The notes below the pieces were generated by a model, which saw nothing but the letters and a program-made list of their open reading frames with translations, did not search any database and was not told the origin of the DNA. The position numbers and the translations under genes were made by a program. Shown piece by piece: positions 21,861-26,910 of a DNA stretch of 43,902 nucleotides (position 1 is the first letter of the stretch; each line of letters starts with the position of its first letter). The stretch is from Amoebophilaceae bacterium. GTDB lineage: Bacteria > Bacteroidota > Bacteroidia > Cytophagales > Amoebophilaceae. The stretch spans positions 1 through 43,902 of the forward strand of contig WTJV01000053.1 of assembly GCA_011524725.1 (NCBI GenBank), given 5' to 3'.

Positions 21861-23324
21861 ATGAATTTTACAGTCGAAGCTATCCTCATTGTAGGCTCCT
21901 TTCTGCTTTTTGTCAGCATCCTAGCAAGCAGAATATCTACCCAGCTAGGTATCCCTACTTTGTTGATATTTTTAGTGGTCGGCATGTTAGCAGGATCTGA
22001 AGGAATAGGGGGCATTAGCCTACATAATGCTGCCTTGGCCAAGGTATTAGGGGCCGTAACTTTAACGCTCATTCTTTTCTCAGGTGGTCTAGATACAGAA
22101 TATGCCCACATCAGACCCATCATATGGCACGGAGTACTGCTGTCAACGATAGGCGTGCTGGTGACGGCTTTTGGCATTGGCTATTTTATCTATTGGGTGA
22201 CCGACTTCAATCTGGTAGAAAGCCTCTTGGTAGGCTCTATTATCTCTTCCACCGACGCAGCAGCAGTATTCTCCATCCTACGCTCTAAAAATATGCATCT
22301 CAAGTATAACCTCAGCCCAACGTTAGAGCTGGAATCAGGTAGCAATGATGTTATGGCTTTCTTCTTAATGATGTTCTTCATGGGCTTGCTGCGCAGTGGT
22401 GGCGAAATGGCCTTGTGGACTGCTATCCCCATATTCTTCAAAGAAATGGTCATAGGCGGTATAGTAGGCTTTCTGGTAGGCAAGGCCATGGTACTGGTAG
22501 TCAATAGAGCACAACTTGCCAATGAAGCGTTGTACCCAGGCATAACACTCTCTATGATCCTGTTTACTTATTCTGGTACCAATTTTATCCATGGCAGCGG
22601 CTTCTTGGCGGTCTACATCGCTTCCTTGGTCTTGGGTAGTCAAGATTTCTTGCATAAAAAGAGCTTAATCCGCTTCTACGAGGGGGTAACCTGGTTGATG
22701 CAGGTAGTTATGTTCATCGTCTTGGGCTTGCTCGTCTTTCCTAAACAGCTCATTCCCGTGGCCGGTGTGGGTATTTTAATTTCTTTGGTGTTGATGTTTA
22801 TTGCCCGCCCCTTGGGGGTATTTCTCTCGCTGGCTTTTTTCAAAGAAATAGGTCAGCAGCAAAAAGTGTTTATCTCTTGGGTGGGTCTTAGAGGGGCAGT
22901 ACCTATTGTATTTGCTACGTACCCCTTGCTGGAACGTATCGATAAATCGGATACTATCTTTCACATCGTCTTCTTCATCGTACTTACTTCAGTTCTATTT
23001 CAGGGAACCACCCTGCATCCCCTAGCCAAATGGCTCAAACTCGATAGCAAGTTATCTGCCAAGAAAGCGAAAGCAATAAGTCTATCAGAAGACGTCAAAA
23101 GCGAACTACTAGAACTAGAGGTAGCACACAACTCGGCTGCTGCTGGGAAAAAGATTGTAGCCCTGGGTTTTCCTAAAAATTCGCTGATTGTGTTGATAAA
23201 TAGAAAAAAGCAATATTTAACCCCTCGTGGAGACACCGTCATCGAAGCAGGCGATAAGTTGATGGTCATGACCGACGATAAACGAGATATCAAAGACTTG
23301 AAAGCCTGCTTGGGGGTTCGGTAG
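21861..23324 (+). CDS. K+/H+ (CPA1-type) antiporter with C-terminal RCK_C/TrkA-C domain, NhaP2/CvrA-like
   Basis: The 487-residue protein is a cation:proton antiporter of the NhaP2/CvrA type. About twelve membrane helices run to about residue 390. Family segments include LGIPTLLIFLVVGMLAGSEG, LFSGGLDTEYAHIRP, IISSTDAAAVFSIL with the transport-site Asp, LELESGSNDVMAFFL, and WVGLRGAVPIVFATYPLL. The C-terminal regulatory domain (about 405-485) has the RCK_C pattern: GKKIVALGFPKNSLIVLINR, then TPRGDTVIEAGDKLMVMT. In well-studied members this domain binds a ligand that controls transport. It lies 67 bp upstream of the symporter/hydrolase fusion on the same strand, so co-transcription is plausible. 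Confidence 0.92.
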   Translation: MNFTVEAILIVGSFLLFVSILASRISTQLGIPTLLIFLVVGMLAGSEGIGGISLHNAALAKVLGAVTLTLILFSGGLDTEYAHIRPIIWHGVLLSTIGVLVTAFGIGYFIYWVTDFNLVESLLVGSIISSTDAAAVFSILRSKNMHLKYNLSPTLELESGSNDVMAFFLMMFFMGLLRSGGEMALWTAIPIFFKEMVIGGIVGFLVGKAMVLVVNRAQLANEALYPGITLSMILFTYSGTNFIHGSGFLAVYIASLVLGSQDFLHKKSLIRFYEGVTWLMQVVMFIVLGLLVFPKQLIPVAGVGILISLVLMFIARPLGVFLSLAFFKEIGQQQKVFISWVGLRGAVPIVFATYPLLERIDKSDTIFHIVFFIVLTSVLFQGTTLHPLAKWLKLDSKLSAKKAKAISLSEDVKSELLELEVAHNSAAAGKKIVALGFPKNSLIVLINRKKQYLTPRGDTVIEAGDKLMVMTDDKRDIKDLKACLGVR

Positions 23325-23391: not shown

Positions 23392-26300
23392 ATGATGCTC
23401 AACTTCAACATAGACCACCTCATCGTTTACATTTTCTTATCCATCACTCTTGCAATAGGCTTACTAGCAGGAAGGAAAGTAACGGATATCCGCGAGTATG
23501 CGGTTGCGAATAGGCAGTTTGGAACTGGGGTGCTCACCATGACCATACTAGCTACTTACATCACAGGGTCGAAAGGCATCGGATACGTTGGCTATGTTTT
23601 TGACGATGGTATCTTACCTGTTTTTTCTATCCTCATTTGCGGGGCTATTATCACTTTCTTGTGCATTGCCTGGTATATAGCGCCTAATATCCAGTATTTC
23701 AAAGGTTGCCTAACCTTACCCGAACTCATGGGCCAGTTATATGGACAACAAGTGCGGTTATGGATGGGGATTCTGGGCACTTTTTATAGTGTTGCCTTGG
23801 TGACTTTGCAAATAATCTGGCTTGGCTATGTTGGCATATTATTTGACTTACCTAGCCAATTAAGTATCTTCTTGGGGGGATTTTTCTTAGTAATCTATGC
23901 CGCTCGTGGGGGCATGAAAGCTGTGGCAATCACCGATGTGTTACAGTTTATCGCTATCCTAGTTTTTGTACCTCTAGTAGCTTATGTGGTGCTCTATCAC
24001 GTAGGGGGTATCAAGGCATTGTTCAGCCAGATACCTTCGCAAACATTTGATGTATTGCACCACCCTAGTCTCAAGAACTACGTAGTCTATTGTATATGGG
24101 ACCTTTTTCCTGCCTTTCCGCTTAGCTTCCCCTTCATACAGCGTATGCTCATGGCAAGAGATAAGCGTCAAATTGTTGATAGCTATTACATTGGTTTGTG
24201 TTTTCTTGTTGTGTTCTATGTGTTGTTGACACTAATTGGCCTAGCTGCTATTGCCCTACGTGCTAATGTTGATGCACATATACCCCAACAGGGCAGTAGT
24301 GTCTTTATTTATATTGTTAAAAATTATTTACCTCTTGGTGCAAGAGGAATTATTTGTGCTGGGTTTATTGCGGGTGTCATGTCTACCGCTGATTCCTTCT
24401 TGCATACCGCTGGGCTCACGTTAGTGCATGATGTGTTACAGACAAAGATCAAGAAAAAAGATGCACTCATTTTTGCAAGATATCTTACATTGCTCATTGG
24501 CCTTGTAGCACTGGTGTTGGCACTGAGTTACAAATCGTTACCACGGGACTTATACGGGGGGTTAGATCTAGGTAAAGGATTGAACTTGATAACAGAAGTC
24601 GTGGCACTCATTTTTACCATTCCACTAGTTGCCGGTATTATGGGGCTTAAAACCGAGGCACGCTCTTTCTGGATCTCAGCCTTCATTACGGTAATAGTAT
24701 TTTTGCTTAGCCGATATTATTTAAGCAACGAATTCGTCTTGCCTTTGGCTATCACTACCAATGTAGGTAGTTTCTTTGGCACCAATTATCTATGCAACAA
24801 AGGTTTTGTGGTAGGTAGGCGAGCACTAAAACAACAAATAGATTACATATGGGAACCCACACGAGCAAGGAAACACAACAGTTTATTAACTCGTGTGTTG
24901 CATGCGCCTCGGAGTCTGTTACGCTATTCCCAGAATAGACTCGAAAAGTACGGGGCCAATCCTACGTTATTTGCGCTCTTTATCTCCCTAAGCTACATGA
25001 TTCCCTTCTTCATGCATAGCTATGCAGAACCAGCTATTTACAATTGGTTATTGGGTATAAGGGGTATAGGAGTCTTACTTTGTGTAGGTTTAATGCTCGA
25101 ATCCTATTGGCCCAAGCAGCTTCTACATTATTTCCCTAGCTATTATCACTTCAGTCTACTGTACTGTCTGCCTTTTGTTACCACACTTATATTCCTGTTA
25201 GAAGGTGGCAGCGTAGAGTGGTTACTCAATGTAGCCCTTTCTATTATGCTACTCATTGTACTAGTAGACTGGCTGAGCTTCATATGGCTATCTATTATCG
25301 GCACAGTATTAGCATTGGGCGTTTATAGGCTGGGATTAGGGCCATTATCAATAAGTATAAGCTTGGATATAGAGACCAAATACACCTTAGTGTATGCAGT
25401 GCTTTTTTCAACTCTCATCGGCCTACTCTTTGCACGCAGGAAGCAAAAAGGATTTGATGCCCTAGCCATCCAAAAAGCAGGATTAGCTAGCGATCATCAA
25501 GAGGCACAGGATGAACTCTTTGAGGCTACTCAAGACAAATTCCAAGTAGTGAAGTCACTTCAAAAAGCAGGTATAGAAGAACTAGGCAACATAGCGCAAT
25601 TGAGCAAGGAGCTCTTAGAGATCAGTCGACAAGATGGACGTAACAATCAGCTCGCCTCTTTAGCACAACAGCTCAACGATAAGCTAACCCCCATGGCCTT
25701 ACAGTTAGACAAGTTTGGGCATAGAGCCACTGGATTCTTGCTCTTAGAAAACGTAGAATGGGTAGCTATTGAGAAGTTTTTACAGATGCTACAGCAAGAA
25801 ATCTATGCCAAAGGCCACGAGCTCAAGATAGTTCTACGCACCCAACGCAAAACGATACAATGCGATGTAGAGAAGATGATGAAAGTCTTAATTAACAGCT
25901 ATGCCTTCATACAAGCAGTGGCCGGAGAAGAAGGGGCTATTTTATTGGGAATAGAAGATACGCAACTAGGCTATTCATTAGACACAAAGACAACAAAGTA
26001 CACCAAGCAGGTAACCGCCGTGCGATTCACCATCACTACGGCACTTGAACTTCCTAAGTTAGAAGAACGATACATATCACAGATGGATAAGGAAATGAGG
26101 GGCAAGCCCGAAGCAGCAACTGGGTTACTCCTGTTAACCAACGAGCGGATCGTGAAGGCTCATTATGGCTACAGCAACACAATTAGTGAAGGGAAAGACC
26201 TGAACCTAGTTTACGTGATCCCTGTCGATATCCGAGAGGTACGCTCCAAAGACATGGATGTCCCGCAGATGAAGCTAGGAGCAGAATGGCCACGGGCTGA

Positions 26301-26910
26301 CGACTCCTACCCAGGCGCACAGGAGCAGGAACGAGAATTACTAAGTGTCGTCAAGAAGAAGACTGGAGCAGATCTCAGCCTAGTCGAGAAAGCCATCGAT
26401 TTGATTAAAGATTATCACGGCCCCGTGATGCGCAAGTCTGGTGAACCTTTTTACCTCCACCCAATCGCCGTCGCCCAAATCGTACTAGATTATGACGCCG
26501 ACGAAGCTACTATACTGGGAGCACTCTTGCATGATACCGTAGAAGATACACCCCTAACGCTAGAACAAATAGAATTGTTGTTTAACAAAGAAGTACGCCA
26601 CATTGTGAGTGGGGTCACACACATGGAAAGTAATAGAGAGACCAATTACAAAGTCCTACTATCACACCCTGAAAACATCCACCGACTCCTAGAGGCAGAA
26701 GACCGGCGAGTATTGTATGTCAAACTCGCCGACCGTATGCACAACATGCGCACCATCGAGGCAAAATCTTATACCAGCCAACAAAGAACTGCTGAAGAGA
26801 CACTACTCTTCTTTGTGCCTTTGGCCAAGTACTTAGGTCTTATGGAAGCTGCCGAAGAGCTCAAAGAGAGAAGCTTTGGTGTGCTGGGCAAAAAACTTGC
26901 AGACAGCTGA
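23392..26910 (+). CDS. SLC5 symporter - CqsS-like receptor - degenerate histidine kinase - (p)ppGpp hydrolase fusion
   Basis: This is a single 1172-residue frame with four parts. (1) About 1-480 is an SSS/SLC5 sodium:solute symporter: AARGGMKAVAITDVLQ and GFIAGVMSTADSFLHTAG, with Ser331-Thr332 at the expected sodium-site loop. (2) About 525-690 is a six-helix module resembling the V. cholerae CqsS receptor: YAEP at 544-547, WPKQLLHYFPSYY, and CLPF at 592-595. (3) About 695-960 is a histidine-kinase-like region. It keeps an N-box-like VLINSYAF (Asn835) and a G2-like ATGLLLLTNERIVKAHYG, but has no HE-R-P phosphorylation box and no DxGxG. (4) About 975-1172 is a RelA/SpoT HD domain with RKSGEPFYLHP, LLHDTVEDT and KLADRMHNMRT. 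His1023, His1047, Asp1048 and Asp1114 match the metal ligands of Rel_Seq (53, 77, 78, 144) in spacing, and Glu1051/Asp1052 match its catalytic pair. The chain stops at the end of the hydrolase domain; no synthetase is present. Confidence 0.9.
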   Translation: MMLNFNIDHLIVYIFLSITLAIGLLAGRKVTDIREYAVANRQFGTGVLTMTILATYITGSKGIGYVGYVFDDGILPVFSILICGAIITFLCIAWYIAPNIQYFKGCLTLPELMGQLYGQQVRLWMGILGTFYSVALVTLQIIWLGYVGILFDLPSQLSIFLGGFFLVIYAARGGMKAVAITDVLQFIAILVFVPLVAYVVLYHVGGIKALFSQIPSQTFDVLHHPSLKNYVVYCIWDLFPAFPLSFPFIQRMLMARDKRQIVDSYYIGLCFLVVFYVLLTLIGLAAIALRANVDAHIPQQGSSVFIYIVKNYLPLGARGIICAGFIAGVMSTADSFLHTAGLTLVHDVLQTKIKKKDALIFARYLTLLIGLVALVLALSYKSLPRDLYGGLDLGKGLNLITEVVALIFTIPLVAGIMGLKTEARSFWISAFITVIVFLLSRYYLSNEFVLPLAITTNVGSFFGTNYLCNKGFVVGRRALKQQIDYIWEPTRARKHNSLLTRVLHAPRSLLRYSQNRLEKYGANPTLFALFISLSYMIPFFMHSYAEPAIYNWLLGIRGIGVLLCVGLMLESYWPKQLLHYFPSYYHFSLLYCLPFVTTLIFLLEGGSVEWLLNVALSIMLLIVLVDWLSFIWLSIIGTVLALGVYRLGLGPLSISISLDIETKYTLVYAVLFSTLIGLLFARRKQKGFDALAIQKAGLASDHQEAQDELFEATQDKFQVVKSLQKAGIEELGNIAQLSKELLEISRQDGRNNQLASLAQQLNDKLTPMALQLDKFGHRATGFLLLENVEWVAIEKFLQMLQQEIYAKGHELKIVLRTQRKTIQCDVEKMMKVLINSYAFIQAVAGEEGAILLGIEDTQLGYSLDTKTTKYTKQVTAVRFTITTALELPKLEERYISQMDKEMRGKPEAATGLLLLTNERIVKAHYGYSNTISEGKDLNLVYVIPVDIREVRSKDMDVPQMKLGAEWPRADDSYPGAQEQERELLSVVKKKTGADLSLVEKAIDLIKDYHGPVMRKSGEPFYLHPIAVAQIVLDYDADEATILGALLHDTVEDTPLTLEQIELLFNKEVRHIVSGVTHMESNRETNYKVLLSHPENIHRLLEAEDRRVLYVKLADRMHNMRTIEAKSYTSQQRTAEETLLFFVPLAKYLGLMEAAEELKERSFGVLGKKLADS

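Follow-up and report, generated by a model that had tools for sequence, protein, structure and literature searches.

The gene described here lies at positions 23392-26910 (+ strand) of a 43,902-nucleotide stretch of DNA, called the window in what follows (contig WTJV01000053.1, assembly GCA_011524725.1), from a bacterium of the Amoebophilaceae, a family of intracellular bacteria which includes Amoebophilus and Cardinium. It is one open frame from ATG to stop, as the first-pass annotation of the window had reported, and codes for a protein of 1172 amino acids (aa) that is modular in structure, possessing an SLC5/SSF symporter domain, a CqsS-like six-transmembrane (6TM) region, a pseudo-histidine-kinase and a C-terminal HD domain of the (p)ppGpp hydrolase type, in that order (SSF-HD protein hereafter). 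Hydropathy analysis predicts 17 membrane segments, of which 11 belong to the SSF part (aa 1-444) and six lie downstream of it. Pfam matches above cut-off were obtained for SSF (aa 36-380, 23497-24531, +; E-value 1.6e-26, 93.6 bits against a cut-off of 22.8), in agreement with the SLC5 region already recognized in the first pass, and for HD_4 (aa 1001-1150; E-value 6e-28).

The HD domain (aa 985-1166; 26344-26889, +) is of the SpoT/Rel type. Its alignment with Rel_Seq (1vj7) has an E-value of 7e-32 and a residue offset that stays at 970 throughout, and none of the eight hydrolase residues of Rel_Seq is missing (R1014, H1023, H1047, D1048, E1051, D1052, D1114, and N1118; catalytic span R1014-N1118, 26431-26745, +). 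The earlier claim of an intact HD domain at Rel_Seq spacing is thereby borne out, with residues 970-1172 matching SpoT HD domains both in this alignment and through HD_4. The same eight residues are complete in 28 of the 29 family members tested. The closest solved structures are Rel/SpoT hydrolases, with 113 bits compared with 45 for MESH1, and a Foldseek search with a predicted model also leads to Rel/SpoT (8e-12). No SYNTH domain was found on the chain with Pfam or NCBIfam.

In a phylogenetic tree, a split with 100/99 support separates the HD domains of the SSF-HD proteins, clustered with the stand-alone hydrolases of Amoebophilaceae and Megaera, from all Rel proteins, the rickettsial hydrolases being represented by two sequences only, both from Megaera plasmids. 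This split rejects the idea that the domain arose when the family's own Rel was duplicated. On the sequences compared, the grouping fits the rickSpo hydrolases of Atkinson et al. (2011; PMC3153485). Two stand-alone hydrolases, one from the Bacteroidota symbiont G018 (L151:2157-2831) and the other from a plasmid of the Rickettsiales symbiont Megaera (L182:3959-4636), are sisters in the tree (100/100), which suggests lateral transfer.

The part preceding the HD domain (aa 683-965; 25438-26286, +) is a degenerate histidine kinase with a DHp-like helical hairpin and a HATPase-like alpha/beta domain. In the window protein, neither HisKA nor HATPase is matched by Pfam even at E ≤ 1, NCBIfam returns a weak ZraS match (aa 742-858) and nothing else, and profile searches against the PDB give weak histidine kinase matches (ZraS, 1.1e-5). 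The kinase had been described as dead, and an alignment of 33 family members upholds this for the H-box context, the G1 glycines and the G2 box, all of which are lost, but not for every motif, as the N-box Asn is retained in 20/33 members and the G1 Asp in 25/33. There is also an 'AHYG' motif in which the His and Gly are invariant (H924 and G926 in the window protein). An AlphaFold model made with an 11-row alignment (predicted local distance difference test score, pLDDT, 67.5) possesses a long helical hairpin, then an alpha/beta domain, and an HD domain predicted with confidence; it was used in place of a single-sequence model of aa 681-1172, which had a pLDDT of 35 and was set aside. Independently of the Rel/SpoT matches, Foldseek relates it to the histidine-kinase cores of ZraS (1.2e-6) and RetS (5e-6). 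Since the H-box, G1 glycines and G2 box are gone while the predicted DHp/CA-like fold stays, this part is a true pseudokinase, kept for a role other than phosphotransfer. Statements on whole genomes, here and below, rest on profile searches. No Response_reg domain was detected anywhere in the window's genome with a profile which matched 12 of 14 control genomes, and this, together with the absent kinase motifs, supports the earlier proposal that the phosphorelay has been lost. A search of 247 Bacteroidota genomes with the pseudokinase profile detected the family in a single one, that of the window, the remaining matches being weak ones to kinases in general. The genome also encodes a 434 aa protein (contig C36, L083:496-1800) with a CqsS-like 6TM region and an intact HATPase_c domain, lacking SSF; its H-box His is replaced by Thr, in a genome without a response regulator.

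With regard to the input half, the Na2-site pair of the SSF domain is kept (Ser331/Thr332), Ser331 being found in 31/33 family members and Thr or Ser at 332 in 33/33; these residues are likened to PutP Ser340/Thr341 by motif position, with PutP itself outside the alignment. CbrA, for its part, has lost the Na+ ligands of PutP (PMC7096432). The 6TM region (aa 525-681; 24964-25434, +) aligns in profile-profile comparison with the sensory part of three CqsS proteins from Vibrio, these being recognized by an adjacent CqsA (NF005526), at P=3e-11. By this comparison it is homologous to the Vibrio CqsS sensor region, as had been suspected. The 6TM regions of other clades of the family are diverged and joined to CqsS via intermediates only (direct P 0.3). 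Of the two motifs previously pointed out at CqsS-like positions, CLPF is kept throughout the CqsS-like clade; YAEP occurs in just 2/37 aligned relatives, the window protein and its positional ortholog, and so is rejected as a family motif. No CqsA synthase was matched in the window's genome, which is 99% complete. Between the SLC5 and kinase-like parts no Pfam domain was reported, the presence of the STAC model in the library not having been checked.

The window's genome has a single RelA_SpoT protein, a Rel of 608 aa on contig C12 (L047:679-2505). Its synthetase (SYNTH) motifs and TGS domain are kept and an ACT domain gave no match; its HD site is destroyed, with RKSG changed to WEEG, HP lost, LLHD changed to LLYD and HNM to QKM. 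The same state, hydrolase residues destroyed and SYNTH motifs kept, was found in all 16 of the family's genomes that carry the fusion, most of their Rels also lacking TGS/ACT. A shortened Rel of about 370-435 aa is found in Amoebophilus, Cardinium, G016, and G020. There is one Rel copy per fusion genome, with two in several Cardinium. G017, alone in the family, has a Rel whose hydrolase is intact (751 aa); it has neither the fusion nor any other HD_4 domain, and the hydrolase-dead Rels cluster with its Rel in the tree mentioned above. No RelA_SpoT match was obtained in G005, G006, and G015. Outside the family, the hydrolase was intact in 16/16 Rels sampled. In G020, 47 bp separate the gene of a synthetase-only Rel from a full-length SSF-HD gene downstream of it (L149:599-5313), so that genes for both halves of the alarmone cycle adjoin.

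The fusion is common in the family. Besides the gene described here, five full-length paralogs (30-57% identity) and several broken copies occur in the window's genome (1.10 Mb, 99.1% complete), and every SSF domain found in that genome belongs to an SSF-HD family member. Some part of the protein is matched in 20/21 family genomes (among them G001, which we take to be A. asiaticus 5a2, and G008, presumably Cardinium cEper1), and open reading frames (ORFs) of at least 1000 aa with HD_4 occur in 16/21, single-contig genomes included, amounting to at least 92 among the matches listed. For 270 further genomes from the order, the matches listed were ordinary Rel-type HD matches only; Rickettsiales were covered through plasmids and published papers. 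A Cardinium plasmid carries a full-length copy annotated as 'HD domain-containing protein'. The Cardinium plasmids p_B (L079) and p_A (L183) each have an SSF-HD gene adjoined by NUDIX hydrolase genes, the p_B copy being broken in two frames.

Upstream of the window gene, at a distance of 67 bp, is a gene for a Na+/H+ exchanger with a TrkA_C domain (21861-23324, +). The order ABC transporter, TruA, Na+/H+ antiporter, SSF-HD is common to the window and the locus of its syntenic ortholog (L009), and local supply of Na+ is a possible reason for it.

Relatives point to how the fusion may have arisen. In G015, of the same family, there are SSF-6TM proteins with an H-box and HATPase_c but no HD domain, and Megaera (Rickettsiales) plasmids encode SSF-6TM-HisKA-HATPase_c proteins likewise without HD; for family members with a live kinase, the match to CqsS (6e-36) extends across both 6TM and kinase. 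These SLC5-6TM-kinase relatives show the ancestral form of the fusion. G015 further has a 6TM-pseudokinase gene that stops where the HD domain of the fusion begins and is preceded, 120 bp upstream, by a stand-alone HD gene of 215 aa (L146:1784-3952), a Rosetta-stone pair which shows the unfused arrangement of the same modules. Two-gene versions are also present in A. asiaticus, along with HD-less copies beside a stand-alone HD gene. On another plasmid (Megaira; L081:4004-6793), an SSF protein resembling the SSF-6TM-histidine kinase L080 is annotated in its record as 'alkaline phosphatase'.

The window gene itself is a mosaic. Its aa 1-480 are 66-82% identical to the syntenic ortholog L009, and its aa 681-1168 are 64-86% identical to the paralog L002 of the same genome compared with 35-58% to L009, the approximate boundary lying at aa ~601-680 (25192-25431, +), where identity switches from L009/L019 to L002. 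Among the closest paralogs HD identity is 72-86% while the input halves diverge or swap. Input halves thus diverge, and output halves are homogenized. The ratio of non-synonymous to synonymous substitution (dN/dS) is low in all four domains (pseudokinase 0.14/1.08, HD 0.07/0.43), a different pair having been used for SSF and 6TM as the values of the window pair were saturated for both, which shows purifying selection in every domain.

On this evidence, the gene probably encodes a membrane 'transceptor' with (p)ppGpp hydrolysis as its output, gated through the pseudokinase, a reading to which we give a probability of roughly 0.6. Its input would be the SLC5 symporter domain together with the CqsS-like receptor domain of six helices. 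Binding or transport of a solute in SSF, binding of a ligand at 6TM, or both, would shift the dimeric helical hairpin and the pseudokinase, and the non-phosphorylating kinase core would relay the conformational change, probably within a dimer, to the C-terminal HD domain, whose breakdown of (p)ppGpp would be set by this relay. A precedent for such an output swap is the grafting of the CqsS 6TM region onto an adenylate cyclase, which made the cyclase subject to regulation by CAI-1 (PMC4821796). Because Rel is a synthetase only in these symbionts, the SSF-HD family would supply the hydrolase half of the alarmone cycle. With differing input halves on one conserved output half, the paralogs may let particular host solutes set the rate of (p)ppGpp removal, so that availability or transport of a host-derived solute would determine the growth allowed. 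The sequences themselves show the domain make-up, the conserved catalytic residues, purifying selection, descent from SLC5-6TM-kinases and loss of the Rel hydrolase site wherever the fusion is found; that the hydrolase is active, that a solute or ligand gates it, which ligands these are and which way regulation runs, we infer. The best reading of the sequences is that a diversified family of membrane transceptors has taken over (p)ppGpp hydrolysis, and probably sensing too. More tentative, and somewhat short of even odds, is a rewired stringent response in which the hydrolase-dead Rel, mostly without TGS/ACT, makes (p)ppGpp, transceptors tuned to different host solutes or signals remove it, and its level is set mainly by gated membrane hydrolysis.

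Several observations weigh against this interpretation. The joint loss of the Rel HD site is confined to one family and may represent a single event. Stand-alone small hydrolases are also present in some of the family's genomes (G001, G018, G019, and G016), so the membrane hydrolases are not the sole hydrolase everywhere. L-histidine was without significant effect on any activity of CbrA (PMC7096432), and covalent linkage is therefore no proof of ligand gating. The interdomain geometry of the AlphaFold model is unreliable (predicted template modelling score 0.48). Some Cardinium copies have a degraded SSF domain, and in one of Cardinium cEper1 (L075:2310-5663) SSF is unrecognized by Pfam and the Glu-Asp pair of HD is changed to Gln-Asn, which would make it a decayed or a regulatory copy. 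Full-length copies without HD exist as well (about 955 aa), and broken copies are numerous in family genomes, which in view of the association of rickSpo with mobile elements in Rickettsiales means that the expansion may be partly non-adaptive.

This last point leads to the alternative with the most in its favour, although we regard it as unlikely: that the HD domain is active but unregulated, merely tethered to a symporter scaffold, in a family inflated by mobile elements or gene conversion, with no input signal. Besides the broken copies, it would account for the loss of SSF or pseudokinase in some members (L075; a decayed copy at C28), for gene conversion among paralogs, for the treatment of SSS/HD fragments as candidate miniature inverted-repeat transposable elements (PMC12039267) and for the ties of rickSpo expansions to transposable elements in Rickettsiales (PMC3153485). 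It fits poorly, however, with full-length copies that stay intact across genera at 26-58% identity in constant module order, with dN/dS that is low alike in SSF, 6TM, pseudokinase and HD, and with pseudokinase invariants (H924, G926) that persist without kinase function.

Signalling could also run in reverse, the HD domain being a site of (p)ppGpp sensing or clearing through which the alarmone state gates solute uptake by SSF. The conserved Na2-site Ser/Thr, which means that transport may be real, and the membership of all SSF domains of the window's genome in the SSF-HD family would suit this explanation, but it is rendered improbable by conservation of all catalytic residues, beyond those for binding, by the presence of the same input on kinases in relatives, which argues for a sensor serving a cytosolic output, and by the loss of the Rel hydrolase site in the same genomes, which argues that a hydrolase is needed. 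Very doubtful is action mainly on some other substrate, NADPH as for MESH1 or ppApp, in which case the link to the stringent response would be misleading. Small alarmone hydrolases can be promiscuous, with Mesh1 hydrolyzing NADPH and an orphan enzyme of this kind in bacteria (PMC9765508), yet MESH1, RelH and ppApp hydrolase are all far more distant from the domain, in sequence and fold, than Rel/SpoT HD is, and the genome has a Rel synthetase without a hydrolase site. Finally, an artificial joining of two genes by assembly or frame error, to which the split two-gene versions in relatives might lend colour, has a negligible chance and is ruled out by the five other full-length paralogs on further contigs of the same genome (six copies in all), the positional ortholog with conserved synteny, the annotated plasmid copy in Cardinium, and the long HD ORFs of 16 genomes, some of them single-contig.

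Should the hydrolase be active, the transceptor reading would give a transporter-receptor with alarmone hydrolysis as its direct output and a natural division in which the two functions of Rel sit on different proteins and sensing goes with the hydrolase. It would lend a concrete role to two previously unlinked expansions, that of unexplained 'sodium/solute symporters' and that of rickSpo, and offers a testable case of kinase cores turning into phosphorylation-free relays. Published work has treated these separately: 19 symporters in A. asiaticus and 12 in C. hertigii were interpreted as serving nutrient uptake (PMC8831229), and Amoebophilus was reported to have 15 RelA/SpoT homologs (RSH), described as 'Rel[HS] + rickSpo[H] expansion' (PMC3153485). 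In the literature covered, which leaves out most subscription journals, we found no paper that joins the symporter and rickSpo expansions, reports loss of the Rel hydrolase site or, in keeping with the first-pass annotation, describes an SLC5-linked SpoT-type hydrolase. The domains are thus known separately (as rickSpo and as 'sodium/solute symporters'), while for their combination, order and role we found no paper.

Compared with long RSH proteins of the Rel/SpoT type, the window protein has the same HD hydrolase domain, its catalytic residues complete and spaced as in Rel_Seq, but it lacks SYNTH, TGS and ACT, is membrane-anchored and does not stem from the family's own Rel. With rickSpo it shares the hydrolase lineage; PMC3153485, however, treats these proteins as hydrolase-only, leaves transmembrane and symporter parts unmentioned, and enters the Rel of Amoebophilus as Rel[HS], which includes a hydrolase, whereas the HD active-site residues of that Rel are found here to be lost. 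In Orientia, a distantly related intracellular lineage (PMC10732058), symporter-HisKA-HATPase(-REC) proteins of the PutP type and HATPase-HD fusions with a SpoT hydrolase have been reported separately, but no single SSF-6TM-pseudokinase-HD chain is described. CqsS, the Vibrio receptor kinase for CAI-1, has a homologous 6TM receptor region; the window protein differs in lacking H-box and receiver, in having an SLC5 domain in front and HD behind, and in belonging to a genome without a CqsA gene. The transporter-kinases CbrA/CrbS also carry an SLC5 domain and a signalling module on one chain, CbrA having been termed a 'transceptor' (PMC7096432, PMC13022988) whose SLC5 domain modulates its autokinase (PMC7096432). 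SLC5 and kinase core likewise share a chain in the window protein, the latter recognized by fold only, but here a CqsS-like 6TM region takes the place of STAC/PAS, the kinase is dead, and an alarmone hydrolase stands as the predicted output in place of a phosphorelay.

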